From assembly GCF_037975245.1 (NCBI RefSeq), contig NC_092565.1:16461499-16525498 (forward strand): DNA of 64,000 nucleotides. The letters are read 5' to 3'. Position 1 is the first letter of the stretch. Every line of letters begins with the position of its first letter. This stretch comes from Apostichopus japonicus (taxonomy: Eukaryota; Echinodermata; Holothuroidea; Aspidochirotida; Stichopodidae). Positions 4,406 to 60,930 of the stretch are shown here, in pieces. A program made the translations under genes and the position numbers. The notes below the pieces were generated by a model. It did not search any database and was not told the DNA's origin. It worked only from the letters and a program-made list of their open reading frames with translations.

Positions 4406-4935
4406 ATTGCAACTACAAGGCAGATGATGTGGACACTCATAAATGCATTCATTAATGATATTCTTAATGCTTGGTATGATTTTGCATTTAAAGAAGTTAA
4501 TGATAACTTTAAAAGTCAAGTCATCTGGAATAATCATCTAAAGTAAATGACAAGGTAATATTTTATAAAACATAATTAAATAAAGGAAGAAGATGCATAA
4601 ATGGTGTAATTGATGAACATTATCACTTTTTATCGTTCTCAGACTTCAGAGAAAAGTATTACATTAACTGCCCATTGACTGTTTAATGTAGTACTATTAA
4701 TGCCATCATAGCTAACTGGAGAAGGTCATTGAATCGATTGAGAAGATTTGCCAAATCAAATTTAAATACCATTTTCATATGAAAAAGGCAACAAGTGAAC
4801 ATGATCTTTGAGATGTGTCAAAAGTTACCAGTCTTTGTGACTATGAAATGGTTGCAAGAAATAGAAGTGAGTTCGGTAGTTTAACGTCATTCAGGCTAAC
4901 TGGTGCAGGCAGTAGAGCGATGATTGTGATCATAG
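4406..4935 (+). pseudogene. Tx1/L1 LINE, C-terminal region (block A copy)
   Basis: Translation gives the post-RT part of the LINE: CNYKADDVDTLK..., then INDILNAW..F.FKEVND and SQVIWNNHLK (about 4,440-4,545), and further on FLSFSDFREKYYINCPL (about 4,627-4,680). The 'SQVIWNN' and 'FLSF.DF..KY' blocks are characteristic of the C-terminal half of Tx1-like L1 ORF2. Stops interrupt the frame. In block B the same segment (48,572-49,110) directly follows the RT part. Confidence 0.75.
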
Positions 4936-12632: not shown

Positions 12633-12784
12633 GTTGCGAAATGTTGAATAATTTAACCAGACAGTGCACCACCATACAACTTTGACGAATCAACTGTGAC
12701 AAAGTTTGTATAAGTTAATTAGTTCCTCCTTTTTTTTTATTGTGTTTATAATCACGCTACCACAGACATCTTTGAAAAGAAGCA

Positions 12785-12792
12785 TATAAATA
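12785..12792 (+). promoter_or_regulatory. TATA box of receptor gene A
   Basis: TATAAATA lies 75 bp before the start codon at 12,860. The same motif sits at the same distance from the start codon in paralogue B (52,438-52,445). The start site itself is inferred, not seen. Confidence 0.65.
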
Positions 12793-12859
12793 AGAACAGT
12801 AGAGCCGTTTTTTTGTCAGACGACAATTCCCTCCGTGCACACGAATTGGCGGTTTAGTG

Positions 12860-12956
12860 ATGGAACCGTTACCCATTTGGTGTTACTTTCTTTTATTAGG
12901 GTCCATGCAGGCAGTTAATCCAGTAACTGCTATCAAGAATGACTGCCCGCTCGCAG
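12860..12956 (+). CDS. Receptor A exon 1: signal peptide
   Basis: Begins at the ATG in 'agtgatggaaccg' and encodes a short hydrophobic leader (CYFLLLGSMQA) followed by a mature start VNPVTA. It ends after 32 codons plus one base at donor gtaagg. The identical layout in block B supports the start. Residue differences from B are Leu4Ile, Pro5Leu and Ile25Leu. Confidence 0.85.
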
Positions 12957-15900
12957 GTAAGGTTTATTTAATAATGCGCTCTCTGATTTTAAAAATGTAG
13001 CCAAAACACTTAATCGTGGAATGGTATCGGGGAGTGGGGAGACAAGTGCGACTGGCAATTTCTTTCTATAATAAGATATAAAATAGAAATAAAGACGAAC
13101 AAAAGCTATATTGTAAGTACTTACCGACGTTTATACGCGGTCATCCGTTGTTTTATGTAGTACTTGTACTTGTACTAAGTATAGTTTTTAAATGGAGTAA
13201 TTCACATGTTGTTTAGTTATTTATTTACTCATTTCAACTTTATTTTGCCAGAGAGGGTTACTCGGTTTGTCGAGACTTATCTCCCACGAGGCCCTATTAA
13301 ATAAAGTTGTTCAAAACATATTGGTGTAAAATGCAATAATAAGTCTGAATGTAAAAAAAAACAAGATGTAAAAAGATCATAAAAGATAGATATACTAAAT
13401 GTAAACGAAAAAAAAATGCCCAATTTAAAACTCTGAATGGAAGCACCAACATGTAAACTGAACATAAAACTAATTTAATAGATAGATAACGGTAAACGGA
13501 TAAATTGATCCCCAATGAAAAACATATACATATAAAATAGGTTAGATGTTACAAAGCTAAATATCATAAACTTAAGAATTTTTCAAAAAATTGTAAGATC
13601 TGTAGAACATTTGCATAAATTAACATAAATATACAATTTCTTTCACAAATCTTTAAAACTGCTAAATTTGTGTGCATTTCTGTCAAATGGAGGCAACTCA
13701 TTCCATTCTTTTGTAGCAATACATGAAACTCTTTTCTAATGTATTTCGGTCCTCTTGACGTCACAGACCGTAGAGCATAATTGTGGCCATTTCATATGGC
13801 GGTATACATCTCATTCATATAATTGGGTGCTAATCCGTTAGGAGATTTAAATACAATAATTAATCGTTCATATATTGAATGTACATCAAAAGAACATTAA
13901 AATGGTCACATTATCTTGCGTGATAAGTTGCGCTTAATGTAATTATAGCAGCACTTTTTTGCAGCTTAGTTATCGTATTAATATATCCCTGATTACATGA
14001 TCCCGATAAAAGATTGCAGTAATCGAGGTACGGAAGAGTGTATCCATTATAATATAAAACTCAAGTTGGCACACCAGTATATTGCTTCATTAGAAGGCCA
14101 ACCTGGTGCTGACAGTCTTACACACATAATCCATTTGTTCTTGCCAGGATAGTTTCATAATATCCTGATGCTGACGGTCTTATATACATAATCTATTTGG
14201 TCTTGTCAGGATAGGTTCAAATCTATCCTGATGCTGAGGGTCTTATATACATAAACTATTTGGTCTTGTCAGGATAGGTTCATACCTATCCTGGTGCTGA
14301 CGGTTTTACACAAATCTATTTGGTCTTGTCAGGATAGGTTCATATCTATCCTGGTGCTGACGGTCTCACACACATAATCTATTTGGTCTTGTCAGGATAG
14401 GTTCATACCTATCCTGATGCTGACGGTCTTACATACATAAGCTATTTGGTCTTGTCAGGACAGGTTCATATCTATCCTGATGCTGACGGTTTACACTCAT
14501 AATCTATTTGTTCTTGCCAGGATAGGTTCATACCTATCCTGATGCTGAGGGTGTTACACACATCATCTGTTTGGTCTTGCCAGGATAGTTCATATCTATC
14601 CTGGTGCTGACGGTCTTATATACATAATCTATTTGGTCTTGTCAGGATAGGTTCATACCTATCCTGATGCTGACGGTCTTACATACATAATCTATTTGGT
14701 CTTGTCAGGACAGGTTCATACCTATCCTGATGCTGACGGTCTTACATACATAATCTATTTGGTCTTGTCAGGATAGGTTCATACCTATCCTGATGCTGAC
14801 GGTCTTACATACATAATCTATTTGGTCTTGTCAGGCTAGGTTCATACCTATCCTGGTGCTGACGGTCTTACATACATAATCTATTTGTTCTTGTCAGGAT
14901 CCTGATGCTGACGGTATTACATACATAATCTATTTGGTCTTGCCAGGATAGGTTCATACTTATCCTGGTGCTGACGGTATTACACACATAATCTATTTGA
15001 TCTTGCCAGGATAGGTTTATACCTATCCTGGTGCTGAGGGTGTTACACACATAATCTGTTTGGTCTTGCCAGGATAGTTCATATCTATCCTGACACCTCA
15101 GAGCCTTTTACATTTTACATTTGCAAGTTGATTTACATTCATATGCACTTAGAAGGTCAGTATTTGTTAATGTACGTTACCTTTGTCTTGAAAAGACTAC
15201 AGCATTTAGTTTCGTCTATATTTATTACCATCATATTATTACTACATCTATATTCGTATATCTTCAGTTTAATTTGTGTAAAAATTATGAGATAAGTCCG
15301 TTATGGTTTTCCCCACTAACATGGAAAAGTTGTATACGTCTCCATACACATTAGCGTTGCAGTGTGATCGACATAAATCAAAGTGATTAATTTAGAGTAA
15401 AAAACGGTAATGGACCAACAATAGATCCCTGCAGTGGCACACCGCTTTGCATGGTCATGCAGGTTGAATGAACCCCATTATAACAAAGACGCTTTGAATT
15501 ATATCACACAGGTAAGACTTTAACCGTTCAAAACAATCTTTGGAGCATTGATATATACTTAGTATTTTTTACAATATAGTAGCATGGATGACTAATCAAA
15601 CGCCTATACGTAAATCTATTAGAATTGACTTACCATAAGTCCTTTTTCTACATCCAACCGTCTATCAATAACTAATAATGCTGTCTCACACGAATGCATT
15701 GCCATGAATCCAGATTGTGCTACTCGTGGTAAATTAAACTTTTCAACCTATTCGTGAAGAGATCCATATACAGGGGTGTAGGAGCCGGGGGGCGGGGCAC
15801 TGGGGGAAAGTGCCCTCATTTTTTTCCAAAATAGCAAATGTGCCCTACTGACAAATAAAATGCGCCCCTTTGATGAAGAACTGTCTTTTGGATATCTGAA

Positions 15901-18900
15901 GCCTTTGTTATTTTAATATTTTTTTAAATTATTTCTTTTGAGTCTGTAGATGCTATTTCTAAAATAGCATCCCATATCTTGCTGTAGCACGGTTAACAAT
16001 AAACAATCTCAATAAATAGTATTGATAGCATACTAACACATCATATATATTTAAGTGATATGGCCGGTGTGTATCAGTTTATAGTATAACGAGTGGTGGT
16101 TGTGGAATGAGGAAGTGCCCCTCTGATGTTGTGACCCCCACTTTTTGGAAGTTTCCTACCCCATGTCGATGTACATTTTTGTCCAAGGTCTTTTTGAAAC
16201 TACGGTTATCACTGATATTGGTCTATAATTCCACACGTCTAGTTTCGACCCATTGTCGTAGGTAGGTATCACTTTTGCCACCGTCCATCTGGACGCCGGG
16301 AAAACATATAAGTTGCCCACTTTTTTTAACATGTTAGCGCTGATTTTATCGGTACCCGTAGCTGTTGAATTATCAAGATGCTGTAGATACCTAATAACAA
16401 ATTCATGTGATAATTTAGGAATATTTAACAGAAATCCATTTGAAATCTCTGACAATACATATTGCTTTAACGTTTCCATACTTTTGTTTTCCTGTGAATT
16501 CTGGCTTGTCGCAAATTTGTTTGCTACAGATGTAAAAAGAAAAGAAAATAATTTGCGATATCGATATCGTTATTGATATCTGTATCAAGTACCTGTAAGA
16601 TAGATGTAGCCCAACATTGTCACGTGTTCCCCATTGATTGTACATTTCTCAAAGCTTGCCAGATATATATTTCCATTATTCTTTAAGATTTCATTTTTAC
16701 AACGGGTCTGTTTGGCAAGTCTGTGTTGCATTGTTTGTAGCTATTTTGACGATGGATATACTGTATGGGCTGGGTTAATAAGAACATTTCTTAGCACTTA
16801 ACAGGCGCGTATCCAGGATTTTCTAACCCGGGGGGCCCGAATTACTATCTAAGCGGAGCGCCACCATCGGCTGTCGCACAGCGTACAAGAAAATTTCTGA
16901 TTTTGATACCACCCAGATCACCGGAATGGCACTTCTCAGGCTTGAAAATAGCCAACCAGATGTACACTTTTTGCCTGAGAACCAAGTATTTCCCAATAGT
17001 TTTTTTCCATCCATAACCTTTTTGAAGATTGTCACCAGTCACAAAACATGTTTGACCTCATCGCATCTCCCGTGGATCATTGCTTTTGTCTAGGTGATTC
17101 TACGTCGCGGCACACAATATACGTCAGCCCCACATTTCAAGGTTTTAAGCCCATTGTTTGTTCAGAATTTGAAAATTCACGTTTCTCGTGAATAAACTCA
17201 CCTCAAAACATACCCATAACGTTGCACAAAATTTCATCTATGGACAAACAATATAGAAAAACCTCCTTCAACCCCTAACAGACCGGTCAAAATTGCACGA
17301 GTAGAGGGAAGTGCTGTGATGAAGAATGTTGGTCAGAAATTTTCGAAAATTCAGACACAGTTAATTTCTTGGTGTACAAATATTAAAACCTCTTATAACG
17401 GCCATTATAAACCTTCACACAAAACCTTAACACACATAGGCTTAGGAGGCGAAGGGTGGGGGTGGGGGCTGCAGCCCCTAATTCGCCATTACTAATGTAA
17501 AAGAGAGTTTTGACCAACGGCCGCGGAAGCACTTTTAATCTGGGGGGGGGGAGGGGGTGGGCACCGACACCAAAGGGCACTTTGCAGAAATTCGATTGGA
17601 CTGATGCAGCCTTATATTTAGTACCCTTTATAACTCTTATTGTATTATCTTATTTGCGAATACACATCACTCCATCAACGCCCCCCATCCCCTCAAGGAA
17701 AATGTGCATACTAGCACTACAATATCCAATGTGTAAATTGGGAAACAAGGAACAAGTTTTCTTTTGAGACAAAATGAGGTGAAATCATGCTAGTTGCTAA
17801 TGTAGGAATCTTCCGAATTTGAGTTTATTTCTTGTTAATATCTTAACACATTTTTTCCATTCGAAGTAGCTTTGAGTTTGACCCACAGAAATTCATCAAA
17901 AGTCAAGGGCGTAGCTAGGATTTGCAAAGTATATGCACGACTATCTGAGCGGAGCGCCACCATCGGTTGGCGCGGAGCGTGCAATAAAAGTTTTGGTTTT
18001 ACAAACCCCTCAGATGGCCGGAAACGGCCCTTCCCGAGTGTTCATTCTGGTTCCCTGGCCTCTTGCTAACTTGAGACACCTCAATTTTTACATAGAAAAA
18101 GGGCACATTTTTAACCTGAGGAAAAGTGGAGGGGGGGGGGGCACGTGCCCCTGTGCCCCCCGGTTCCGCCGCCCTTGTTTTTTTTGCGAAATTTTTGGCT
18201 ATTTTGTTCGGGCAAGTCGGACAATTTTGAGGCTGTTCATCCTGTAACGCCATTTTCATGCTCACTGATATGATGTGATATCTACTGTTTGCTTTACAAA
18301 TTTAAACAGGCTCGTAGCGAGGAATTTGCCAAGGGAGGGGCGAAGCCTGTAGGCAAATTATCTAAGCGTAGCGCCACCATAAGTTTGCGCGAAGCGTAAA
18401 AGAAAATTTTGTCCGAAAATGCCTCCCAGATCGCTGGAAATGGCACTTCCCACCACCATTTGTTGGCGCGAAGCGTACAAGCAAATTTTGGCCGAAAATG
18501 GAAATGGCACTTCCCAGGCCTTGTAAGTTGCATCTAAGCACTTTCTATTTTATTTTTGAAATTACAAGCGATATCATAAAAAATAATGCTGAAGGGGGGG
18601 GGGGGGTCGCCCCTTCCCGAAATGCGTCATGTTCGAGTTCGAGACCAGCCACAGTTGGTTTCATAGCACAATTCTACAATTGTTTAAGACGTATATAAAC
18701 ACACACGCGTTATGACAGACCATATATAGTATATATATATAGATCATGAGTGAGAGAGGAAAAATGGAAACGTCAAAAATGGAGTTGTCGATGTAAGGGG
18801 TAGGGTGAGGCACACGCCACTTCCGAAATCCTTGATCCGTCACTGGCTACCCTGTGTATGTAATAGGGATCAGCGCTGTAACGATGTCACTGTTCCTCTT

Positions 18901-19663
18901 TCTCTTCCCGGTGTCTTGGCGTGTTCTAGCTTCTACTCTCTCCTTTTCTTCTTTTTTTTTCTCTTTCTTCTTTTTCGTTTCCCTTCCTTCCTCTCACCTC
19001 CTCTTTTTTCCTTCTCTTTTTTTTTCTCTCCTCTCTTTCTTACCCGGGGGGCGCGCGCCCCCAACGCCCCCCTGGATACGCGCCTGCTTAATGTTCGTTG
19101 TAGAAACGAAGGAATTCAAACATGTCTTGAGGCGTTAACATTAAATGTTGATATATAACATTATTGCATTTTATTTTTTTTGTAAATGTTTTATGATTTA
19201 CAGCTTGTTCTCATACATACATGTCAAGGAATCACTGAGCTAGTTGGATGTCTGTGTTAATGTGTTACTTAAAATTCTTGTAAAGTTTTGAGCTAAATTT
19301 CAACATGATCTAGTCTCACTATCATTTTTGATACTTTTGCAACTTAGGCAGAAGGAAACTTTAAGATGTCAGTGGCATACATTTATGTACTTGTGATCAG
19401 AGGTTTATAAACCTGACAACTCACCATGTCCAGCATATACGAGCTTTAGAATATACAATTTTACAACAGGGAGTGAAAAATTGTGGCCAAATGCAGATGA
19501 TCCAGTCATCACGATTGGAACACCAGACAAAACTTAATCCGTCTGTGAGACATCTAATGTAATGATCATTTTTTCACTTGTTCTTTTGTAAATTAATTTA
19601 CTTTCTTTGTAAAGCGCCTTGAGCAGTGACTTTTGGTTACTGATTTGGCGCTATATAAGTCTC

Positions 19664-19702
<39 letters not shown>

Positions 19703-22700
19703 CCAGCGTAAAGCTGGATAACTTTGCAGATAATACAAAACTTTACCAGCAATTCTTGTTATCAACACTGTTGTTATTATGGCATCGTCTATACCCGCGC
19801 TGTATCATACTTTGCTTTCAGTGTGAGTTTGCATGCTGTGTCATCTGCTGAAAGATATATACGGGCGATTGAATACTCAAAGAGTATCATATCCATAAGA
19901 TCCACTTCTGATTCGCTTCGTATGGGACTCTGTGTAGTTTTGCTAATGAATGCTCTACATCAGCTCTCCACGTACAAATGGTGGAACATTTCCATGACTG
20001 ACATTAAATATGTTTGATTAAAATAAAAACCTACTCCAAAAGTATATGTATATAGTAGCTTAATATATCACCTCAACTTTCATTGCGACACGTACCCAGC
20101 GTGACTAAGTACAGTACCGTGAATGCATGGTGTATAGCCGTGTCAAATGTAACTGCTATTTTAAACTCACAAAAGATACGTGTTGATCTCATAAACTTGA
20201 ACTTCCTCAAAACGGAATTCCCTTATCTGGAAACGTGTTCTCTAAAAGTCAGTATTGCGTACTTTGTCTAGATTGAGATTGTTGTTCCTTCTTGTACCAT
20301 GTTCATTAATTCTATACTTCTTTCAATGTGGGGTCTTTTCCCCGCTTTTGCACTTCCCATTTGACTTTATCACGCTTTGTCTTTTGTATCTGAACCTGTT
20401 ACTTTCCCTTGAACCCGAATAGTACGGTCGGCATCACATGATATGGCAAGCCATCAGTCTCAAACCGTGCAGGAATCGACATATACCGATTTAAATCGAC
20501 ATATACCAATTTATTAAACTGGAATAAGTCGATTTAAATCGGTAAAAGTCAATTTTAAGCTGCTGGAAACTGGTTTAAGTCGAAGGAAATTGGTATATGT
20601 CGATTTAAATCGGTATACGTCGATTCCCCACGATTTAAGACTGATGGCCCGCCATAGCAGCCCTCCTCTCACTACATGTCAAGTTGCTTTGCTGCAGCTA
20701 AAACCTTTGTCAGCCTAACGAGGGCGAATATCTCAGTCTATGATAACAACTGAGACATTTGTACCACTATTCAGCCCTGCAGGTTACTTCATATGCTTTA
20801 CAGACCAAGCACTTTAACTGTCGAGGCTGACTTTATCAGTCAGGTGCGTATCCGGGGGGGCGTTGGGGGCGGGCGCCCCCCGGGTAAGGAAAAGAGGAGA
20901 GAAAAAAAGAGAAGAAAAAGGGAAAAGGAGGGGGGAAAAAGAAAAGGAGGAGAGGAAGGAAGGGAAAAGAAAAAGAAAAAGAGAGAAAAATGAGAAAAGG
21001 AGGGAGTAGAAGATAGCCAAGACCTCGGGAAGAGAAAGAGGAACAGTCATAGTTAAAGCGATGATCCCTATTATATACACAGGGTAGCCAGTGACAGATC
21101 AAGGATTACGGAGCGGGTGTGCGCCTCACCCTACCCCTTACACCGACAACTCCATTTTTGACGTTTCCATATTTCCTCCCTCACTAATGTATCTATATAA
21201 ATACTATATATGGTCTATCATAACGCGCGTGTGTGTATGGACGCCTTAAACAATTGTACGATTGTGCAATATGGAACCAACTGTGGCTGATCTTGAACTC
21301 GACCGAGTCGTCGGGGAACATGACGCATTTCGGGAAGGGGGCGACGGCCCCGAGCAAATTTTCTTTATGACATCGCTAGTAATTTCAAAATAGACAATGC
21401 TTAGATGCAACTTACAAGGCCTGAGAAGTGTCATTTCCAGCGATCTGGGAGGCATTTTCGGCCAAAATTTTTATTGTACGCTTCGCGCCAACTCATGGTG
21501 GCGCTTCGCTTAGATAGTTTGCCTACCGGCTTCGCCCCTCCCTTGGCAATTACTCGCTACACGCCTGTTCGAGTTTGTAAAGCAAAGAGCAGATATAACA
21601 TCGTATCAGTGAGCATTGAAATGCATGTTCCACGATGAACAGTCTCAAAAACTGTCTATGTGTATCAGGGGCGGATGCAGGATTTTTGACAGGGGGGGGG
21701 GTCTGACTGGTCCAGCCGCGCCTGATCGAAAGACTATCTAAGCGGAGCGCCACCATCGGTTAGCGCGGAGCGTACCAGAAAATTTTGGGTTTTACAAACC
21801 CCCCCAGATGGCCGGAAACGGCACTTCCCGAGTATTCTAAGCTGCATGTACCTAGCCTGAAAATATGGATCTCATGTCTGCACTTTCTCAATTGATGAGA
21901 AAAAAACAATCTATGAAATATGGTAATACATATCAGATGAGTTGAGATGATACAAAAATCATAATGCCTTTAACCACCAATCCCCCTCCCGTTCCGTCAC
22001 CACTGTTTGATGCAGGGCCGGATCCAGGATTCTGGAAGGGTGAGGGGTTTGGCCTCCAGTGATCCTAGGGTCTAAGGGGAGTGGGTTTCCCTCTATCCAT
22101 TGTGAAATTCTTGGATACTTAAGTACAACAGGGAACCCCCTTCAATTTAGCCATTCAAAGCACCTACAAAAACTCACTCGAAATGTATCTGCATCAGTAC
22201 GAGTTAGCTAGTTTTATTGATGATCTATTCATGGTAGATTGGAGAGAACAAACGCCGTGGATGTTTCTCAATGAACTTTCGGACCACTTCGTCAGTGTCG
22301 ATAGGAGTGTTATAATACGTGTTCATGAGAACAAGAGCTGTGAGACGTTCCTTGCCCATTGTTGATCGGAGAACAGTTTTATGCCTTCTCACCGCAGAAA
22401 ACGATCTCTCATGAAGAATTCGTCGGCGCATCCTATGCAGCCTACCGCTCTGCCACCTCACCGCCCAAAACAATTCGAACACCACCTCAATTTTGAAACT
22501 TTTCGGTCTGAAAATTGAGATTTTTAGGCATTTTTTGCACGTGTAGCACGCGTGCACACTATAGTTCATTTGACGGAAAAGACACACCTGGCTGACTTGT
22601 AAGGATAACCGCCCTTCTGACGTCCTACATGTTTAAAGTTGGCGTTTACTTTAATTATTTTTTCTCTCTCTCTTTTTTTCTCTCTTTTTTTTTCTCTTTT

Positions 22701-25700
22701 TTTTTTCTCTTTTTTTTTTCTCTCTTTTTTTTTTGGCCAAGAGCAGGGGGTCCGGACCCCCTGGACCCCCCCTGGATCCGCGCCTGTGTATAGTCAAAGG
22801 CGTAGGAGCCCAATTTGATTTGGGGGCTGTAACGAAAAAAAAAAGGTCAACATTTTTCGCGCGCAAAGCGCGCGCTCAATACATCGATGCCAATATCATA
22901 CAAGCAAGCATCGGTCATTACATTGCGTGGCATCGTGTACCGAACGGTCCGTGAAAGTTACACAGTATACCCGCCGGATGCTAATGTAAACAACCAATGT
23001 CTTATGTAGATGGAGAAAAAGCATACAGATCCATTTATGTCAAAACTCTCTTTTACAGTAGTAATGTCGGTCAAGCTTACAACTTTATTTTAATTACCAA
23101 GGAGATCATTTTTAAGCTATTCATTGCTATTTATTTTTCTTTAAGTAGGTGCCCGCCCGAAGAAAATGGGAAAAATTTGGTTGCGGGGGAGGGGGGGGGG
23201 GCACTCCTACGGGACCTACGCCTATGTGTGTAGTGTTCGGTTTCGATATACCTGATATCGGAAATATCTGCTATTTTTCATTTCCTTCAACCAAGTTTTA
23301 TAATAGCCATTTATAAGAGGTTTTAATATTTCTACACCAATAAATTAACTGTGTCTGAATTTTCAAAAAATTTCCTGACAAACATTCTTCATCATACTTT
23401 TCTCTACTCGTGCAATTTTGACCTGTCTTTTAGGGGTTCAAGGAGGTTTTTTCTATATTGGTTGTCCATAGATTGAATTTTGTGCAACATTATGGGTATG
23501 TTTTGAAGTGATTTTATTCACGAGAAATGTGAATTTTCAAATTCTCAACAAATAATGGGCTAAAAACCTTGAAAAGTTTGGCTTTCGGACATTGTGGGCC
23601 GTGACGTAGAATCACCTACAAAGGCAATGATCCATAGGACATGCAATGAGGTCGAACATGATGTGACTGGTGACAATCTTCAAAAGGTTATGGATGGGGG
23701 AAAAAACTTGGGAAATACTTGGTTCTCAGGCAAAAGTGTACATCTGGTTGCTCATTTTCAAGCCCGAGAAGTGCCATTTCCGGTGATCTGGGGGGTATCA
23801 AAACCAGAAATTTTCTTGTACGCTCCGCGCCAACCGATGGTGGCGCTCCGCTTAGATAGTAATTCGCGCCCCCCGGGTTAGAAAGTCCTGGATACGCGCC
23901 TGATCAGTAACGTTTCTCAAAGTGTGTGTACTTTAATGCCTTTCCCAATGTGGGTATTTGTTCTCACGCTTGTTGCTACAATGTTAGGGTTTATTACTTT
24001 TGCAACAATCCGGCTTGAATAGTTGTCTTCATCGCTATTTTTCTTGTATATTATGCAGAATGACTTCACGAATAACACGATATCAATCCATGTTGGATCA
24101 ACTTTATATAAAGGTCGCTATGTAGCTTTTTCTTGTTTTTACTTTTTACTATAACGTTAACATTCATAGCAGCCTCTCAACTAAGATAATATACTATCTT
24201 TACACAGGGTTTAGAAGCTTTTGTCGTGAATGGACTGTTATACTTGTTAACAAGATTCAAATGCTGCATGCATTCTTGGCTGCTTTTATAGTGAGTCCAT
24301 ATACTGGTAATCGTATTCTAGCAAATTAGTTACTTTAACTACTACTGTTGTCTCGTACTACAAGTCTGAATGTGTTGTTCGCAGGCGCGTAGCCGGGGGG
24401 GGGGGGGGGTCGAAGGGGGCGACCGCCCCCCTTGAGCATATTTGTTTGAATGTTTTTATGATATCGCTAGTAATTTCAAGCTTTTAGATGGGAAGTGCCA
24501 TTTCCAGCGATCTGGGAGGCAGTTTGAGCCAATTTTTTTTTTTTTTTTTTTTACGCATACCGCCAACTTATGGTGGCGCTACGCTTAGATAGTTTTCAAT
24601 GCAGAATCTACGCGCCTGGTTGTTCGACATATTTCCCAAGTTGATGTCTGTGTTACTATTTATGAATTGATATCCATACAGATGTTCCAGCGTGTGGACC
24701 AACAGGTGTTTGTACTTGCTATGACAGTGAAGCTGATTGTGCGGATAAAGGTTTGGTTGCCTTGCCAAGAAACCTGTCATCCGACTTGCTTTACATGTAA
24801 GTGTGAGTACGTAATTACACGTGAGCATGTGACAAGATCTAGGCCTATATAACACCCGTAGGCTGGGATGTACGTTCAATGTTTCTTGGCTTCACCTCAT
24901 GTGATTGGACCACTGCAGCAAGGTGTTAATTAAAGTAATACCTTCGGAGGTGGGCTATATGATTTGGCCAATAAACACGTCGAATAAAATAACCCATGAT
25001 AGTGTCCGCCACGTCTCTAGGGCAATTTTTTCAGTCACGATAAGCGTTTGAATAAGAATTGTCTCATGATCATAACCCTCATTGCCAGCATTTTAATTTA
25101 TTCAACTCAACAGCCAATCAAATTGAACTTTTGTCGTTTATTATGGAGTAATCGACATTGTAATTTGTAGGCAGCCTAACTGTATATTTCTACTGATGTT
25201 TGTTTTTTTCCGATAAAATATACTGAAGGTAGTTTGTGTAAAGAAGTGCACGATCAAATGATATGTAAAAACTTCGAAATCCTGCCTACAACACTCACAT
25301 GGCTCAAGCAGAATAATGTGCTAGAATTGACCTTAGAAACCCATATCTTACTTAAGTCATTTCAAATTTCGAGTGTCTTAAGGCGTCTTCGTTCTTTTAC
25401 TCACGAGTTTGTGCATTTTTCTTTCTGTACAGAGACCTTTCAAGGAATGCAATTGAATGTGTTCCCACGGAATTTTTCGAACGATTTACCAATCTGAAAC
25501 AATTGTAAGTATTTTCTTTCTTATATTCAGGTTTCCAGGAGCATGACTGATACAGATTCTGGCCACACATAACTTGTATAGCAGTGTACAATGCAGTCAC
25601 TAGCTTTCAATATGTACCATGATTGCAACTGAAATTCTTTAATTTGTATAGATTACTTTCATTATAAGAAGAATACTGTTATTTTTCATTTTGTGTATGA

Positions 25701-28157: not shown

Positions 28158-31100
28158 GCTATACTTCAATCTCAATTTCAAATACTAATTTTGACCTTCG
28201 CTCCCGACAGAAGTATGCAATGGAATGCTGGGCCTTACTTCCTTTCTGAGGAATCAATATCAATAGTGTGTTCTACCCTTGAAGAATTGTAAGTATGTAG
28301 CTAGTATATAGCTAAGTATATAGCTAGTATACAATATATATATGTAATTATATAGCTAGTATATTGTAAGTATATAGCTACAGAATATGACACCTGCAGA
28401 AGTAAGTACTTTACATTATCTTCGGAATATTGATGCCATGTTATTTTATGTCTCTATTATGTCTATAGAACCCTCAATTAGCAGACCATTAAGATCACAC
28501 AGTTAAAAATCTAACCGGTCGAGTAAAAACCATCCCAATTCCTGGTTTTATGACATGGGTTTAAAGCCTCCGTCATTATGTTAACACGTCAGCTTAATTA
28601 CAACAAGCAATTTAACTGGTACTCCTTAATATAAAAATTATTGAAAATAAATGTAAACAAGGTAAGAAATAAATAAGAAAACTAACTTACCAAGTATTGA
28701 TTCTCTTGCATCTAACTGTTATCAGCAGCCTTTCGTAGCTAATATCGCAGCCAATAACGAAAGAATTACAAATCGATTTTCTCGTTTTACTGTGTAGATG
28801 TAAATATATTAAAAATACGGTTTACACAAAACTGTTACTCAGCGATATCATGATGTCAAAAACGATATGATTTCTTCATGATTCCAAATGACCTTTACAA
28901 TAGTATAAATATACTTACTGACAACTATCGGCCCCCTTACCCCAGTGCTGTCACGGACGATCACGCAAACGCAATGTCCACTATTAAACCCGCACCCGCA
29001 GATAGTACAGGGGTTACGATAGTAAAATAAAAACGGGTTGTCTGCAGAGGTAAGCTGGTTTACAATACAATACAAAATGTCAAGGTTAGCAAATACAATT
29101 GTGATAATGCTAAGTGATTGAACACCCTATGATAAATTCTATATAGCGAACGAAGCCCCTCCATTATCACCCTTAATGCGCAAGTTGTATTCATCTCTGG
29201 CATATTTCCATTATTGGCATTTTTCCGTTACTGGCATATTTCCATTCTGCATCTCTGTAGCTTCATAGATTTTATTATGAACTATGGCGTAACTGTCTTT
29301 TAATGTTGTCATATTAAGTTGGGGACAAAGTTTTTTTTGGCAAACGTTTGGCAGACTATCAACTTTAAAGGTCAAGTGACACGTAACAGATTTCCTTCAA
29401 ACTTGCACAAATTGAGAAGCTACATATCAAAACCCTATACTCCAAATTTGGAGTTCTACGATTGTTCCTTTGCTGTTTTAATTAAGTTAATAACCAAGCT
29501 AATCCCGTAAGATAATGACGTCACGGGGGAACCGCCAATGTTACCAAAACTAGAAAGGCCTAATATGCTAACCGAGATCAAAGCCGTAAACAATACGTCA
29601 CGGACAGTAAACAAAATATCATATGAGAATGGGTGCACAACAGTACAAGAAAGTTTTGTGTTCGTCAAACACTGTATACAACGATATCTTAGTACCAGTG
29701 CACTCGGCCAGCCTAGCTGCCTAAGTAAAGATTGGCTTGGACCTTCGAGTGAATCTTATGTGTGTGTTTCCTATCGCCTATCCGCGCAACTTGGACTTGG
29801 AACACCAACAGCTCGCCGTCTACAAGACAATGCCGTTCCTTCTCTATTTGGAGAAAGTATCTTCAAATCTCGAGAAGATATAGAAACAAGTAGACCAGTG
29901 GTTGAGAAGCTGGATCGGAAGAGAGTAAGTGTATTACTAACTTAGTATTATTACTAACTTACAGTAGGCTAATTCTTATAATTTCGTTCAGTTAGTTAGG
30001 CCCTAAATTAGGTATGGCGACGATAAAGTTAGGCGTGGGCTAGGGCTAACAAAACTTGTATCAGTGGTACATCATGAAAAATCCAGGATAACAATCATCA
30101 GATGTTTACATGTCATTTTGCCCAATAATGTGCTCCCACCTATCTTCATACTCATAGCTCATATGTTGAGCAGTAAATGACATCCTTATATTTTGCCATT
30201 TTTGGTGGTAGGGCTGCAATTTTTGTTACAAGAGAAAACGCTTGTGAAAGGTGCTTTCAAACAAACAAACTGCTTTCTTAAATGAACTTTCATAACTTCC
30301 TTGTTATTTTCTTTCCCAATTTTCACTACTTAGATTAATCTAGAAGCTGTTCCCCAACCAACTGCAGTGAAAATACAAAAGCAGGATTCTGCAGAATGTA
30401 CATCTCCATCTAAAGGTAGCATGATCTTATATACATGTGCTTGTAATTACCGAAAAACAGTTGGGAAATGGGGGAGGGGAGGGTGGTGACAGGCATTAAA
30501 GATTTAAGTAGTCAGTTTTGAACGGGATACAAGGAATCTCCACCAGTAAAACATCGAGGCATGTATATGGGGGGGGGGGGGGGCAAGCTACCTGACAAAA
30601 AGGAGGCAGCAGTAGTACGCCCGAAAGGTCCCCATAAATAGGCATAAATAGAGTGATGGATGGGGGAAGCTGACTAGGGGATAACATACATTGTATTTTA
30701 TCCATCATATCCGCTTGCCTGACGAGAGTGGTTGAGGAGGCTATACCTGATGGCTTCACAGGAAAATATATAGGCTACATCTATAGTTACTGAGAGAAGG
30801 GATATTATTTTGTAGTTAAACTATATGAAACCAAGCTGAAGTCATTTGAAATGCTCATGGTGTGAGTGGCCCATATTTTTGCAGCCACATAAAGTAGAAG
30901 GGTATGCTCTCCTTGAGAAAAGAGAAGTGAACCATCTAGGCAGCTGACCCCTGTCCTAGAGTAGCCTACTGTATGTGTGTGGCATAATAAGCGTTTATTC
31001 TAATTTTCAGTGAATGTAACACATGTAGAAGTCCAGTGTTCACTGGTCCCCCTACCACCATTGAAGTTGTTGACTGAACCAACAGAGACAAGAACACCAT

Positions 31101-34100
31101 CAAAGCAACCAGGGCCATCTCACAGTGGCGATGATTGTCTGTCTGCTGCTGTGGCATCCTCATCGGGATACACCGAAAAAACCGCCAGGTAGTCCGGACT
31201 ACACTCCATCAGTTCACTCATCTGATGAATCTGAACATGACAAAGATGATGCTTCAAGGTAATTTTCAAGATTGATAGTAGATTAGTCTGGAAAATCAAT
31301 TGGTGCTAACACTTTCCGGAAAGAGGATCATTATTAACTTTGACACCAACACTGTGGAGCAGTCTGGAATGTGTGGTGAGGCCATCAGTCTTTACTTCAA
31401 TTAGCGTATACATACTGTATCTGGTAGAGTTGTCACAGCGGTATGTGAACAAGAAATAAAGGCACAAACAAGTAGTTGGATTTAACAGAGTATATTATAT
31501 CTTCACTTGGCTGGATATCTGCTACTGAATACAAATGGTGAAAGTTTCATCTTATACACTCTTTTACCATGGATTACAAGGGGATGGGACAGGATGTAAT
31601 ACTCTGTCCACATGTTTACTTTACTAAATAAACAGTGGTTAAGCTACTGAGACAATAACCACACATCCTGCTGAAGATTACATAATCCATAATATTAGGT
31701 GCACAAACAGGTGTAGGGTTTTTGTTGTAATCAGTAAAAAATATATTGGAATTGTTCAGGCACAAGTGGTCAGGTAAAACATGACCCATGTATCCACACC
31801 AATCGAGGTGTATCAGCTGTCGCCTTAGTTGGGCATCCAAAGACTTGACTGACAACTGTGCATTGTGCCATGACTTTTGACCGAAATGGAGTGATTGGAA
31901 TGCCTCTATCTAAATGGTATGTTTTCATGAACTATTATTCTTCATATCTTTACTATTCTACAGATTACGTATGGAACTGTTTGACTGCTTGCACAACTTC
32001 TGCAGAAGTGGAACTCTGGGAGAGGAGTGTCCTGTTCCTGTCAGAAAAGAGCCACCACCACTTGCAAGCTCCTATATTCATCCGAACAATGAGGATGCCA
32101 TAAAACAACACCGAAGCAGATTTCAAAAGCTTTGCTGAAGTGGTTGATGGCCTCCCAATTTCTAATTTTGTTTCATTGTAGTTGAGAGCAATCGCTTTAT
32201 GATCAAGTAACCTTGATATTCCATGGATTAATGAACAATTTCAGATTGATTTTCATTACACTTTTATTAAAATGAAAGCCTACGCTCTCCAGATCCCATT
32301 GACATAGTGGTTTAGGCTACTTCATTCAAACTGTTCTTCTATTTTAACCTAGTATATTTGAGATTTCAATCATCCAGATTTTGTTGGCAGGCTACTAGAA
32401 GTGACAGCTTTGCTTACAAGAGAGAATTTATACAAAAAATTAACTTGAGTTTTTATTATTTATTACTGTTATGTACTTCCCAAACTTGAAAATGTAAAAA
32501 TTCATCCAAGATTGTAGTTAATACCATGAACCAGAAAAATGTATGCTGGAATTCCAAAATGTTCACCATTCAGCCACAAAACAGACAGGACTGGACCCTG
32601 TTTCATTAAACTTTGCAGAAATGATAGTTTGACTTGGCATACAAAGTCCACATTCTCACAGTCTTGGTAATTTAAACCCTTCATACTGTTCAGATGGAAA
32701 AGCTGCTCGAATCCTCCTTACAGCACAGGATGGGAGAACAACACGAACCTCTTTCCCTAAAAACTGCCAGCACATCCGTACAAGTTGTCTGTATACTGTG
32801 TGTCTGTATTTCCTGTAAAATAATCATATGAAAATCAGCTATGAAAGATGAACACACAAAAGCTTGGTAGCCATCTGGGGACGTCAATTTTAAAATAAAT
32901 CTCCATATGATTTCCAGAATTTTGATTGGCCCGTAAATCTGCCTCCCCTAAAGTTTCAGGCCTAGCTATGCAATTTACACAAACTGATCATTGAATCTCG
33001 GTGACTAAAATTTGTAAATGGATCATGCCCAAGCATGGTGGACATTTTTTGTGTGGGATTTGGTTCCGTGGCTCAGTGTAAATGACTACTATGTCAGTCA
33101 GCATGATAAGGGTTAACCTCAAGGACATTGCACCAGTTTTTGTTTTTGCACAAAATGTCCTAATCAGAAGCAGGTTTTGAACATGGTGCACACATTTTCT
33201 TGATCTAATCTATATCTTAATGTAATTCCCTTCACAACAAAACTAAACTATGAATACAAGCACACCCTCTGTATTGTTACATCATTCAACAGCAGGTCAG
33301 AGCAATGAATAAAGGTATACAACAAATATAATGTATTCTCTACTTACTAATGGATGCTATTTTCCTGTGCACGGCCACCATACTGTTGACGGTACACGTT
33401 GTAGGCTGTCTGTAGCACCCATGGGTTCAGGCACACAGCTTCAAAACCTGGGTGTAAGGTGATGCATGCAGCACCTTCTTCATCCATCACATTCCTTACT
33501 TTTTCTATTTCCCTGCAGCATCTACACTCCCTTGCTGTAGGCATCACAGCACACTGGCCACAAGACACCTGTAAACAATGCAAACCAGTTCAAATGATAA
33601 AGAGCCAATTTTCAATGACTTCATACCGGCCTCAATTATTGGGCATACTAACATGTCAAAATAAAAAAAAAAACCTCTGAAGGGTTGTCTACAATTGAAG
33701 CTCCTTATAAGTGGAGGAGGGGGTAGCCTCTTCTTAGAGTTCTTGCCTCTGTTGGGACAATGCTGCAATGGAAAATAAAACATGCCGATGTTGCCTCGTT
33801 TCCAACTGTTTTTCCCACTTCTGAATCCATTCCCTAGATTGAGAAAATCTGGTTATGAAATTAGCTTAAGCAAAAATGACGAAAAGCTGGTGTGAGGTGC
33901 CACCTTCTCCCTCCCCCACCCTTTCCCTAATTTGTGGTAACTTCACTCATTTGCCACTACAACTGCTAGGAAATTAATAATAGACCACCTCTGAATTTGT
34001 TGTGCACTCTTCCAATTGGCTCCTTCAATCTACTAACCAAATGAAATATGTCTGTGTGACATGTTCCTGGGGCATGTGCTGCCACAACTTTTAAGGAAAA

Positions 34101-37100
34101 TAGTAACTCCCTTAACTTAACTCGACCGCACTCTCATCTTAATTTTGCTGCCCCATCAACAAATTGGCTAGCTAAGAGTATGAGCAAAGTTAGGAAACAT
34201 TTATCGGTTCTAGGCCTAACTAGTGACACAACTATCGGCCTATACAGTATAGTACGCTAGGCGTAACGTTACCCAGTGTGTTCCGTCAAGACGATCAATT
34301 TCGACATCGCTGTCCGATCCCGCTTCCTCTTCGCTGGTCTCCGGTTCGAACATGTAGGGAAAAACTTCCCCACGATCGTCGACCATGTCCTCCATTTCCC
34401 TGCATTCTTCGCTATTGCTATCTGAATACTGTGTGTCAATGCCACCGGCAGCCATTTCGCGATATGTATAAGCTATGCTGTGTACGCTGTGCTGTGTATA
34501 TATGCGTACTACAGTGCGTTTATAGAAACTGTTCAATGCGACGATATCATGCACTTTCGACTTGGTAAACAAATGACGTCATTTGTTTTCGACTCTCCCT
34601 GAACGAGTCAATCTAGCCGATTTTTTGCGGAGTTTATGTTTGCTTGATAGAAAGAAAATGCAAGGAATTTATGAAAAAAGAAGTCAATGGATGTTTTGTT
34701 CGATGTCTTATGTATCATTTTGTGATTTTTCATCTTAATCCAAATCTTAACTTTCTTGTAACAGACTGCTGAAAAAGGTAATATTTTCGAGAAGTTTGAG
34801 ATTTCTACATACCCAATGCACTGCGCAGAACATATACAGTTTGCACTCTTCTGCGCTCCCCCGTGACGTCACTGAATCTATTACGTAATAGTACTTTTTA
34901 CCGATTTCTACCCCTTTGGAGACGGAAAAAAATCTCGGTGTTGGGTTTTTCTTAATGTAAGAATTGTTAAGTTTAATATTATGTAAAGTCAAGTCTACGT
35001 GTCACTTGACCTTTAAGCAGAGTATTACCTAGTGCATAAGTGCATAAGGTATAGCAAAGATTTACGTAAATTAAAATATACCTAATGCCAACGTGCTATT
35101 ATGTTTTTCACTTAGGTCGATCTCAACTGACAAACTACCTTCAACTCTTCTACGAAATTGCACAGGGTTGATTCTTTTGTAAGTAAACACGACATCTGCC
35201 AGCTTTATTTTGATTTGTGATATATCACCTGTATACCAAACGGTTAATGGCTGTGAAAGTCTCTCCATTGTCAAATGTAAACCTCCTTCAAGATCTTCCA
35301 CCTTGAACATCATTTCATATCTTGGAATAACTCTTGGAACGGAACAAACCTGTGGGTATGAGACCATTTAGTAGATCCGCTGAAAGTAGAAGAGGTCAGT
35401 GAAAGGCAGAGATATATATTCTCTGACAACATCACGATTATCAGGTTTCCCGGCCACACAAATACCTATTAAGAAACTCACGTGCATTCACTTACAAGAA
35501 GTGAAACCAAAAATCTATTAAATTTGGGGTAAACGCGTAAGTGGAAATTTTGAGTGTTAAACTCATTCGACTACAGTATGCTTTTTTTGTTACTACTCAG
35601 TATTTCTGTGTGAAAGGATGCACATATTTGGATTAACTTACGCGTATTTGTGTGTTAAACATAGACGAAAAAATTTGTCGCAAAAATTAACCAGGTGTCG
35701 CGGCAGTCCTATACCTTGCATGGCCTTTTGATCTGGGTTAAAAGACATCTCAACGTCATCATACGAGCCGTGAAAATTTTGACGACCGTTTATGACGAAA
35801 TATTGGTGCCAATTGTATTATTTGGATTTATTTTGAAAATGTGAGATCATGACGTTATTATGGCTTTCGATTTTGTTTCTTTCTTCAATTGGACACATTA
35901 CCACATTATATATTCTCCACAATTTAGGCAATGTTTGCATATGCAGTTAAATCTTCTTTGGTTTAGTCAATTATGTGAGTGTATCGAAACAATATCAATG
36001 ATGAAGACTCTGTAATTTTGCAGGATATTGGTTGGATTCGCTCTCATATTGTATCAATACTAAAGTTGAAATGTGTAACTGCATATTACATGTTATTTGT
36101 AACGAAAAAAAGTCATACAAAAAGACTTAGTTCTGGTCCCAATGACGTCTGAAGGAGATGTGTAAAAGATTTACATAGCATGAGTATAAAAGAAGAATCT
36201 ACTTGTCCTCCAGATATTAATTTTTGGTGGCACCCTTATATACATGAGTACTGGAATCCCTTTGCTACAAATTGAAAAAAAAGGTAGAAAGATAAACAAG
36301 ATATGCCATGCACACAGAAACATGTGCAGTGTTTAGCTTACAAACGTATCCTTCAGATGAAGAAATAAACAACAGAACCTAAATAATAAAAGCAATCAGG
36401 AGATTTGAATAGAAATGCAGGCTGCACGTACGACTTTACTCTCCAAAAATGAATGTTTAATTGATTCACAATACCGATTTTCTTGATGTAAACTGAGCCA
36501 TCTCTTCTTTTATTCGTACACAGTGACTTACAATATACCACCTTGTTTGAAATTCCGGAAAGTTTCTTTCACACAATTCAAGGAATTAGTAAGATGTAAG
36601 ATATACTGCTGTTTCTTCTTTCATTGTTAAGAGATGTTTAGAAATTAGTAAGTTAACCGACAACCACTCCAATAACAAGAGTCAAACGAGGTATAGCTGT
36701 TGTTACGGTATCAATTAACACAACAGTTTTACACCTTGCAACCATCAAGATTCACTTTAAATGACTAGTTTCACTAGAATTGATTGACCTTTGGTTCCCA
36801 TCATCTTCATGAAGTCTCATTTCACAGCACTACCGAAAACACCTTGTCGTATCAGTTATTTTAATCACTAACTTATTTTCCCATGACAATGACATTGACC
36901 ATAGCCAATGTTTAAGTTACCGAATCATAGTGAGTCACTTATCTGCGTTTTCGTTTCATAATTTGATGAAATCATTCCTGTAAAGTCTGCCGTCTGTTCT
37001 GTTTTACAGACATATGTCATCTATCAAGCTGAAGACGATACCAGAACGACTGTTTGAATCCACTTCAGTTAATATGATTTTGTAAGTTTCATGACTAAAT

Positions 37101-49110: not shown

Positions 49111-51569
49111 CAAATTAAATGGTAGTCCGATCGTCCAAAACGACCAAAATTTATATCCCTTTCTACAACCCTCGTTCTAACCTTGATAGAGCAGTCATTC
49201 AGCCACCATGTAGCCCCCCTACAACCCCTTATTAACCTTGGAAGTGCAGGAATACAGCCACCCCATGTACAGTAGCCACACCTGCTATCCTTGGGAATGC
49301 AGTGCTACCACAACTCACCCACCTAATCCGAACCTTATCCTGAAACCCAGAAAACCGAGCGAAGAACGTCGTTTCTGTAGCGTCCTATAACTAGAACGCA
49401 ATGCAAAACAGACAGCCGTCGTTCATATAATTTCGTGCACTGAAATTGCGCCACCTCTTCAGTACACTTGGCTTACAGAGCGAATTGACCCAGTATTGAA
49501 CCCTATTACATATATGTCATAGCATGTATACCCTAATACAAATAAATAATAGTGGCGCTCGTCCGTTTTGTTATCACCGAAATCTTCCCCCCTCCTCCAG
49601 CAAAAAGGACGTAAAAACCGTCTTCAATATTACTTTTTGCAAATAAAGGTATGTGTCCAAGGAATTGCTAAAATATTTGAACACGCTCATACTGTAGACT
49701 GTCACAAACAAGTCTACTGTGTCTACAAGGGTCCACAAGGGTCTACAAGGGTCGACTATGTAGGTAACAAACCCAATTAGAAAACGTTTAGATTATTTAG
49801 GTCCAACTTCTTCTTGACCGATCTGAACTATCAATCTCGTTTGGGATTAATTGATCGGACTAAGCAACACTTTTAGATTTTTCATCAAAGTAACTTTAAC
49901 GTTAGTGTGCAACTAAAGAATTCGATTAATCCCTCGATGATACATTCGTCGCCCAAAAACTTATTCTGAGCCGCCTTCATCAACTTGCTTGTACCATCGG
50001 TTACAGCACCGAAATCTTTCTGAGGGAATCTCTCAGCTAATGTAATGGTCACGGCGTTTGTCATTTTAAATAAATCTGTTATCAGTAATGCGTTTGGTAA
50101 GTGCCATGCTATATATTTCTTATCTGACTAGTGTGTTAAAGTAATTGTATTTCTTTAACACTATACAGGTACGTGTTAGTTTAACAGTTGAATTTTATTC
50201 TTGGTGTAAAATTAGGTCTACCAACAGTTCAGTACAACTACATTAGCATACCACTAACAAAAATAAAAAATAAAAAAAATCATTGGATGAACAGGGAGAT
50301 GTAAAATGCAGATATGAAGGCTTGAATAGTATTGGACAAAACAAAATTCCCTAATTTTTAATTGATTATTCCCCAAAATATCTAAGCTCAGTATCAACGC
50401 CAAAGAAAACCCATAAGTATCATATGATAGAAGGTTCCACGGAATGTTTATGAATAGTTTAACTAAAGCAAACTTGGGTGAATTAATTAAATTGTCAAAT
50501 TTAGTAAACGGAAGTAGTCTCCAACGAATGTAATTTCCTTTACGATAGTGAGAATTTGAAAATAAGAAAGTTTGAGAAGAGAATTCGTGTTTGTTATATA
50601 AATATCATTAATTAACTGATCTCGACAACTTTTGTTATTAGTCATTTACCATATCATTTTGTGTACTACTTTTGCTTTAATGTAAAGTGTTAATACAGAG
50701 GTCCAGACATTTTCGTTATTTCTTTCTTCCTTTCCTGCATGGAAGTGTGTTCTGCTTTGTTTCCCTAAGCAATTATATCTGTATATTGCATATTGGCAAC
50801 AACAAATAAATGAAATGAAATACAAAACTATGGACTAAGACTAAGACTCTCGGTGGAAAGCACGTTTCTTGTTCTATAATGATGTGGCTTGCTTTTAAAT
50901 TTGTCTCTTAAATAAAAACGTTTAGTTCATTTTCCAATTGACAAAAATATACGGCAGTTTAAAAGTGCCATCAAAGAATAAAATATGTAACCTTAATAAG
51001 TTAGCATTTTGCAGAAATATTTTAGAGTGACGATATGTAAAAAGTGGCTATTTCATCATGTATTTAGAAAATTTGTTAAATCGCAAGATTGTAAAAATAT
51101 CAACAACTAAGCATTTTGCAGAAAATTGTTGAAACGACGAGATCAACCTTCATAAACTGTTATTTCAACCATTTAATTTTGGAACAATTTTGAATTTGCC
51201 GACGTGGAAAGATGTCAACATTTGAACATTTTCCAGAATATTGGTGATATTACGAGATGTCATAAATTGTTAATTCAACATTTTGCAGAAAATCGTTAGT
51301 GTAAAGAAATCCTTATCTTGATGGCACGTAAAAGCTGCAACAAAGTATAACAGAGTGCAAAATAGTATAAACAGGAAGTTAGCAATTGATAAGAATTGAA
51401 ATAAAACTCCCATGTAGGCTTAGAACTCCTGAACAAATACGATGAATAAGAGAAAAGGGCAATGGATTGTATTTATTTTCAAAATTCAATACAAAGCAGT
51501 GTGGTAAAGTAGTAACGGGATAATTCTAAATTTGGCAAGATATTCATCCACTTGCATCTAGTATGAAGC
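49111..51569. other. Duplicated intergenic DNA without a supported gene (block B)
   Basis: Counterpart of 4,936-7,380, with scattered substitutions and short indels, such as about 18 extra bases near 49,258. No frame is preserved in a coding-like way between the two copies. Confidence 0.6.
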
Positions 51570-51960
51570 TTACACACATAATCTATTTGGTCTTGCCAGG
51601 ATAGGTTCATACCTATCCTGGTGCTGACGGTATTACATACATAATCTATTTGGTCTTGCCAGGATAGGTTCATATCTATCCTGGTGCAGACGGTGTTACA
51701 CACATAATCTATTTGGTCTTGCCAGGATAGGTTCATACCTATCCTGGTGCTGACGGTATTACATACATAATCTATTTGGTCTTGCCAGGATAGGTTCATA
51801 TCTATCCTGGTGCAGACGGTGTTACACACATAATCTATTTGGTCTTGCCAGGATAGGTTCATATCTATCCTGGTGCTTAGGATGTTACACACATAATCTA
51901 TTTGGTCTTGCCAGGATAGGTTCATATCTATCCTGGTGTTGACTGTCTTACACACATAAT
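51570..51960. repeat. 63-bp minisatellite array 3, about 6 copies
   Basis: Block B counterpart of array 1, contracted to about six units. Units alternate between 'catacctatcc' and 'catatctatcc' types. A degenerate last unit continues after the SINE (52,213-52,285). Confidence 0.95.
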
Positions 51961-51961
51961 C

Positions 51962-52212
51962 AGGGAGTGTTAGCTCAGTGGTTAACGTCGGTGCCTTTCA
52001 ATAATAAGGTCCCGAGTTCGAGTCACTTCAAGATTAATGTATGTCGTCCAGTTACAGAGTTGTTTACAATTTACAATTCATAATCATGGACGTCAAAATA
52101 TGAATCTAAGAGACTGACTTCGGTCAGCTTGCGGCTTTGATAAGCCAATGATGGCGGCTTCGCGAGTTCCTGCTTGCAGGAGGATCTAAAAATACAAAAT
52201 ACGAATACAAAA
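51962..52212 (+). mobile_element. tRNA-derived SINE
   Basis: Starts with a tRNA-like head: A-box TAGCTCAGTGG (51,971-51,981) and B-box GTTCGAGTC (52,016-52,024), spaced as in a tRNA. A shared body and an A-rich tail follow ('ctaaaaatacaaaatacg'). It is inserted in the last minisatellite unit and is absent from block A near 12,570. A truncated relative is at 26,095-26,285 on the minus strand. The lack of tRNA-like folding after the B-box and the long body argue against a functional tRNA. Confidence 0.85.
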
Positions 52213-52609: not shown

Positions 52610-53075
52610 GTAAGATGTATTTAATATTGCTCTCTCTGATTTTAAAAATGTAGCTAAACCACCAAATCGTGGAAAGGTATCAGGAGTGGGGAGACAAGTG
52701 CGACTTGCAATTTCTTTCTATAAAGAGATATAACAAAGAAATAAAGACGAAAGAAGCTATACTTTAAAGGCGATATCGCTCGTAGACTTTTTTTTGAGGG
52801 CGCTGGCATTATCGAGGTTTCAGCGAGGTTTAATGGGACCCCTATTAATCACGTGACCTCGGTGGCAAATTTAGATCAGTGAATAGCACAGGCAAGCGTA
52901 TGCGCAACAAGCCCGTACCCATGCACACATAATGTTATAACACAGCATTTCAGTTTACTGTACTGTTTACCGCATAGGACTTTCGTCCTCGATAGTTTGT
53001 TGTTTGTGTGCCTTTTGAGTAAAGAATACTGTACGATTTTCGTCCAAATACATTCGATTAGAGTATTGTGACAAT

Positions 53076-53306
53076 CATGGAAAAGGGATCAGGGCAAGGA
53101 GAATCGGGCGAAATAAAACGACCTTATCCTGGAACGAGCGTAGGCTAGGTTTAAGTGGAGGAAGGCCTTTGTTGCATGGACCTGACAAAAACAGCAGTGC
53201 AAAGGAACAACAGCGACGAAGAGATGCCACGAAGATCTATCTTCTACGTTCCTATGTAAGCTGGCAAATGGAGAAAGAACTCTACAAACATGTCCATGAT
53301 TAGACT
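53076..53306 (+). pseudogene. Possible first exon of the TTAA transposon gene
   Basis: The ATG at 53,076 opens MEKGSGQGESGEIKRPYPG and stops after about 23 codons. The neighbouring frame is open for RRLGLSGGRPLLHGPDKNS and DATKIYLLRSYVSWQMEKE before a stop. This looks like one coding region split by a frameshift. I do not recognise the family. Confidence 0.35.
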
Positions 53307-60025: not shown

Positions 60026-60930
60026 TTAAGTACATACCGACGTTTTATACGCTGTCATCCGTTGTTTTATGCCACTGGTCACTTGTACTAAGTAGTTTTG
60101 AAATGGAGTAATTCACATGTTGTTTATTTATTTATTTCAACTTTTTTTTGTGCCAGAGAGGGTTGCTCGGTTTGTTAAGACTTATCTTCCACGAGGCCCT
60201 ATTAAATGTAGTTGTTCAAAACATATTGGTGTAAAATGCAATAATAAGTCTGAATGTATAAAAATCTAGATGTAAAAAGATGCATGTAAACTGAAAATAA
60301 AACTAATTTAATAGATAAGTAACGGTAAACGGATAAATTGATCCCCAATGAAAAACATATACATATAAAATAGGTTAGATGTTACAAAGCTAAATATCAT
60401 AAACTTAAGAATTTCAAAAATTGTAAGATCTGTAGAACATTTGCATAAATTAACATAAATATACAATTTCTTTCACAAATCTTTAAAACTGCTAAATTTG
60501 TGTGCATTTCTGTCAAATGGAGGCAACTCATTCCATTCTTTTGTAGCAATACATGAAACTCTTTTCTAATGTATTTCGGTCCTCTTGACGTCACAGACCG
60601 TAGAGCATAATTGTGGCCATTTCATATGGCGGTATACATCTCATTCATATAATTGGGTGCTAATCCGTCAGGAGATTTAAATACAATAATTAATCGTTCA
60701 TATATTGAATGTACATCAAAAGAACATTAAAAAGGTCACATTATCTTGCGTGATAAGTTGCGCTTAAGGTAATTATAGCAGCACCTTTTTTTGCAGCTTA
60801 GTTATCGTATTAATATATCCCTGATTACATGATCCCGATACAAGATTGCAGTAATCGAGGTACAGAAGAGTGTATCCATTATAATATAAAACTCAGGTTG
60901 GCACATCAGTATTTTGCTTCTTTAGAAGGC

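Follow-up and report, generated by a model that had tools for sequence, protein, structure and literature searches.

The analysed stretch of DNA (hereafter the window) comprises 64,000 bp of the genome of the holothurian Apostichopus japonicus (RefSeq assembly GCF_037975245.1, contig NC_092565.1; C5:16461499-16525498) and contains, at positions 29369-35012, a TTAA-flanked element that carries a P2X7 ballast-domain gene on the minus strand and the remnant of a second gene on the plus strand. The element has perfect 17-bp terminal inverted repeats at 29369-29385 (plus strand, starting with AG) and 34996-35012 (minus strand), and scans for inverted pairs and TTAA pairs located its target sites at 29365-29368 (left) and 35013-35016 (right). 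With the TTAA included, the perfectly inverted pair measures 21 nt on each side (29365-29385 and 34996-35016). Among the 43,456 pairs of TTAA sites lying 0.5-15 kb apart in the window, three have perfectly inverted inner 12-mers (0.003 expected), and the element is one of them. The matching inverted ends inside TTAA described in the initial annotation were therefore confirmed, at the length of 17 bp named there. An inverted 15-mer is present in the subterminal regions (29516-29530, plus strand; partner at 34857-34871, minus strand). A TTAA target on both sides is a feature of the Kolobok superfamily, and the AG...CT termini fit the 5'-RR...YY-3' rule (R, purine; Y, pyrimidine) given for Kolobok elements (PMC9587614).

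Kolobok elements of the Kol0 lineage encode a transposase and a protein named KolX, which has the cytoplasmic ballast fold of P2X7 and seven conserved cysteines (Kojima and Bao 2022, PMC9587614). The ballast (KolX) gene of the window element was modelled with three exons on the minus strand, i.e. exon 1 (34273-34455) for an acidic N-terminus, exon 2 (33348-33568) containing the zinc cysteines, and exon 3 (32656-32812 including the stop codon; 32659-32812 without it). With an X at one stop, this model matched P2RX7_C (Pfam PF20478) at 58.3 bits (E 1.2e-15), the curated cut-off being 23.5 bits, and exon 3 by itself matched at 2.2e-7. The three-exon ballast gene read from the letters alone, and the strong match to the P2X7 tail family expected of it, were thus both borne out; a KolX profile compared with solved P2X7 gave 9.1e-32. 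Like the C-terminal ballast of P2X7, a vertebrate immune receptor, KolX has the domain by profile, and all seven zinc cysteines are invariant in 10 of 10 aligned KolX relatives, as is an arginine matching R546 of rat P2X7; an arginine matching R578 is found in nine of the 10 (numbering counted from the alignment). Unlike P2X7, KolX is a short solitary protein without a channel part. AlphaFold modelling of the KolX frame from one related family, F4 (described below), with 10 sequences gave a poor model (mean predicted local distance difference test score of 54.5; predicted template modelling score of 0.54), so that the identity of the ballast fold rests on sequence. As judged in this way, a second protein with the ballast fold, which is a Kol0 feature, is present. 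In the window copy, six of the seven cysteines remain, the first being lost, and a stop codon spans the junction between exons 2 and 3. Among 15 copies compared, both defects are found only in the window copy and its duplicate, L014. Because of this stop and the lost cysteine, the window copy should make no working protein; it is a dead, decayed copy of the element.

The plus-strand gene was modelled with four exons: exon 1 (29565-29924), which encodes the last part of a THAP-like domain (AVPSLF box), the domain being incomplete in the window copy; exon 2 (30334-30415); exon 3 (31011-31258), in which the frame is broken in the window copy; and exon 4 (31964-32138). The exons tested gave no Pfam match, including none to a Pfam transposase, and a search of the window copy for THAP found no match at E values as high as 10. 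In a comparison of the first exon with solved structures using phmmer, two hits to a heme transporter were obtained at E 0.45, i.e. at the level of chance, and were discarded. Exon 4 weakly resembles residues 506-547 at the C-terminal end of the F4 transposase, with E 8e-4 in a single comparison and a common SRF ending. The core of the F4 transposase had no match in the window element or in the 18 loci of its family tested, at E values up to 1. A DDE transposase, another feature of the Kolobok superfamily, is thus not encoded in the window element and is probably encoded in the related F4; lacking the transposase core, the window element can at most be a non-autonomous Kolobok member.

Further copies with the same 17-bp ends exist in the genome (671,581,487 bases in 35 contigs searched). 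With up to two mismatches allowed, there are 93 window-type ends on one strand and 97 on the other, compared with nine in a reversed control. Fourteen sister copies were fetched complete, and three further pairs of ends more than 10 kb apart were fetched in part. Each of the 14 complete sister copies gave matches to ballast exons 1-3 and to the first exon of the plus-strand remnant, and most gave matches to the remaining remnant exons, including exon 2; the sister copies also carry breaks of their own, seen as split exon matches. Among 100 of the 190 ends, 18 pairs have their two ends within 15 kb of each other (window copy included), and all 18 hold both genes, which answers the question, raised with the initial annotation, of whether copies hold the two together. 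When 100 of the 190 ends and 150 of the 151 ballast matches were counted, a ballast match was found no more than 12.5 kb inward of 85 ends and on the outer side of two (0.28 expected). TTAA is present on both sides in 13 of the 14 sister copies, and L018 has GTAA on the left. In the 290 bp on each side, 13 sister copies are unlike the window copy and unlike each other; L014 alone shares the window copy's flanks and is a duplicate of it, located about 124 kb away.

Two additional observations concern these copies and their surroundings. On C5, at about 16.44-16.65 Mb (the window lies inside this interval), the spacing is about 123.96-123.97 kb both between the window copy and L014 and within each of two pairs of F4-type ends, which suggests either a tandem duplication of the C5 region or an assembly duplicate. 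In addition, three pairs of ballast exons that are 64-72% identical to those of the window copy and contain no internal stops (C17:15664174-15664847, C21:9464463-9465204, and C9:10676038-10676779) lie away from the window-type ends listed, and are possibly better-preserved, intron-bearing relatives.

A search of the genome with the P2RX7_C profile yielded 471 candidates; 150 of these were scored, all 150 were above the cut-off, and 14 control genomes gave none. The 30 best ballast loci were classified into five further repeat families (F1-F5) and a singleton, L041. The ballast frames of at least five other repeat families are diverged and intronless. In F4, sequence identity to the first copy is 99.3-99.8% over at least 9.7 kb for the copies on C5, C9, and C15, which share a TTAA-AGGT end and diverge in sequence beyond it. 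The F4-type end occurs 89 and 92 times and is absent from the control; no left end matching the right end was found in the part of F4 read. On all three chromosomes, F4 contains an open frame of 550 amino acids for a transposase, which matches the Mutator-like Pfam model PF20700 (3.6e-8), and, convergent to it, an open ballast frame of 169 amino acids (P2RX7_C, 5.3e-33). The motifs AGDG, VTDAH, DVWH, and GILES were picked out by eye in the transposase, where a DDE triad with a C/DxxH signature was sought. The F4 transposase used as a query matched 93 genome pieces, which were merged into 60 loci; a ballast match lies within 10 kb at 35 of them (0.16 expected under uniform placement) and is convergent at 34. 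This comparison used 89 of the 150 ballast matches (the 61 lowest-scoring ones having been dropped), so that the co-location counts are lower bounds. C-terminal fragments of the transposase are also found beside the ballast frames of F1 and F5. Viral contigs searched with the ballast protein and the exact end contained no relatives.

Several sequences within and outside the window were observed alongside these families. Another element flanked by TTAA, with ends of the F4 type, occupies positions 52764-60029 of the window; its left end differs at three of 20 bases. The element aligns with the outer parts of F4, without the central 7.3 kb that contains the transposase and ballast frames, and we regard it as a core-deleted relative of F4. 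Two more TTAA pairs with perfectly inverted 12-mers (3043-17538 and 17383-23326) possibly mark other elements, and long tandem arrays at 7773-12569 and 51479-51997 encode, on the minus strand, a repeated unit like QDQIDYVCNTINTRIDMNLSW. The ballast frame of the singleton (L041:1324-1962; P2RX7_C, 8e-32) lies in a locus that resembles none of the other repeat families and has no listed transposase match within 12 kb; it is a candidate host gene. Dozens of P2RX7_C exon matches have scores near 30 bits, one TGA, and the positions 143-192 in common (e.g. C12:3218051 and C17:2435658), suggesting another high-copy, ballast-bearing repeat family.

The ratio of non-synonymous to synonymous substitution rates (dN/dS) of the ballast gene was calculated with L014 left out as a duplicate and, for F1-F5, from open frames only; three pairs between families were saturated and gave no ratio. 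The ratio was 0.03, 0.13, and 0.06 in three pairs of F1 and 0.21 in one pair of F2, and reached 0.74 over 91 pairs of the window family, in which the exons are no more conserved than the introns (0.937-0.940 and 0.937-0.951, respectively). According to these ratios and this exon and intron conservation, selection preserves the ballast gene in at least one family, and in the window's family the gene is drifting.

These results indicate that the window element is very probably a non-autonomous, decayed Kolobok member of the Kol0 kind in which the ballast (KolX) gene is the second gene. The relatives in the same genome encode, as their sequences show, a transposase and a convergent KolX with the P2X7 ballast domain. 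Their transposase would cleave at the AG...CT termini, with TTAA as the insertion site. KolX, which according to dN/dS is under strong purifying selection in one family, may be an accessory protein that the active families need for transposition. The window family has the ends, the outer transposase exons, and KolX, and lacks the catalytic core; it multiplied to about a hundred copies (190 ends), presumably with transposase made elsewhere, and these copies then decayed. It is moderately certain that the window family arose by deletion of the core and was mobilized by a transposase from elsewhere. The tail of P2X7 would descend from a KolX gene of this kind, as published: P2X7 is proposed to have originated when KolX was fused to a P2X4-like gene (PMC9587614).

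The ballast domain as the second gene of a Kolobok-like transposon, which the initial annotation had deduced, is thus supported by the two genes found in 18 of 18 pairs, by the ballast matches inside 85 of 100 ends, and by the convergent transposase of the relatives. This link between ballast domain and transposon is right, yet already published (Kojima and Bao 2022, PMC9587614). Like the published Kol0 elements with KolX (Kolobok-1_XT type), those described here combine TTAA targets and RR/YY ends with a transposase, in relatives such as F4, and a KolX of ballast fold; the window family differs in being decayed, in lacking the transposase core, and in having a three-exon KolX gene. The Kol0 hosts named in the available text of that paper are vertebrates, annelids, cnidarians, and sponges, echinoderms not being among them. 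The Kolobok superfamily as a whole has been described as having TTAA targets, RR termini, and DDE and THAP domains (Xenopus Kolobok paper, PMC6004289). Solitary ballast proteins (ZCD or NANOR-like), with gene counts below 10 in each species, have also been reported, as has a protein of Ixodes in which a THAP ('TAHP') domain is joined to a ballast domain (Rump et al. 2020, PMC7016195); the available text of that report contains no word beginning with 'transpos'. The domain is likewise contained in short proteins in A. japonicus, but this genome has at least 150 exon-level matches, in contrast with the small gene numbers in that report.

Some of the data weigh against this interpretation. No element combining the window's ends with a transposase was found, the 100 listed ends all being more than 15 kb from any of the transposase loci, and the link between the plus-strand gene and the F4 transposase consists of one weak C-terminal alignment and a common layout. 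The F4 transposase is named Kolobok on account of its ends, its KolX partner, and the motifs recognized by eye, the Pfam assignment being Mutator-like. At 25 of the 60 transposase loci there is no ballast match within 10 kb, which means that some related transposases are without KolX or that matches were missed, and 15 of the 100 listed ends have no listed ballast match inside, one of which (C1:15437799, locus L002) does show ballast exon 1. Selection is not uniform, i.e. dN/dS is 0.61-0.70 in three pairs of F5 and exceeds 1 in two young ballast pairs with 7 and 10 changes. As to the THAP domain, a CSAxF...AVPSLF stretch is preserved in the sister copy L016 and matches the C-terminal half of the Pfam THAP model at E 0.065, below the cut-off, and five F4 upstream frames gave no THAP match. 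Since the L016 match is below threshold and the window copy has none, the plus-strand gene is likely, though not proven, to be of the THAP type: the gene annotated initially exists, with four exons, and its THAP assignment is left with a sub-threshold match.

The near-neutral evolution of the window family (dN/dS of 0.74, with exons and introns about equally conserved) would also be expected if an ordinary transposon had caught a host ballast gene by chance and amplified it along, KolX being a mere passenger in this lineage. This reading is very unlikely, given that diverged, intronless ballast frames are present in at least five other repeat families, that one lies within 10 kb at 35 of the 60 loci of the transposase, that dN/dS is 0.03-0.13 in F1, and that KolX occurs in several phyla in the published Kol0 lineage (PMC9587614). 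A piggyBac element that acquired a KolX-like gene, to which the TTAA target would be equally suited, seems a shade less probable still. PiggyBac elements have CC-type termini and a piggyBac transposase; the window element ends in AG...CT, and no Pfam transposase was matched by its exons tested. The RR/YY termini are given for Kolobok, unlike piggyBac (PMC9587614). Moreover, most of the seven cysteines are absent from the KolX-like proteins of piggyBac, whereas the window copy keeps six and 10 of 10 relatives keep all seven, and the transposase adjoining KolX in F4 matches a Mutator-like model. Finally, L014, with the window's flanks about 124 kb away, could be taken as a sign that a two-gene host region was segmentally duplicated and that its inverted ends arose by chance; this is extremely improbable, as no further pair of the 15 copies compared has matching 290-bp flanks, the shared element is sharply ended, and 190 ends stand against nine in the control.

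The P-element transposase, which also bears a THAP domain, needs a guanine-nucleotide switch in cis. One could imagine that KolX supplies such a switch in trans, in which case the GDP site of P2X7 would be left over from a transposition co-factor, and the window family would be a former user of this machinery that lost its core. The kept equivalents of R546 and R578, which contact GDP in rat P2X7, and the purifying selection in one family are the basis of this idea, which we consider unlikely.

The Kolobok interpretation of the window element amounts to an independent confirmation, from one whole genome, that the domain forming the cytoplasmic tail of P2X7 belongs to a transposon gene. Beyond what has been published (PMC9587614, in its available text), the present analysis adds a member family in Apostichopus japonicus, the abundance of the domain in this genome (at least 150 exon-level matches in several families), the convergent layout with the transposase, and the selection result. 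The nearly identical two-gene copies with open frames could serve tests of the function of the ballast domain.

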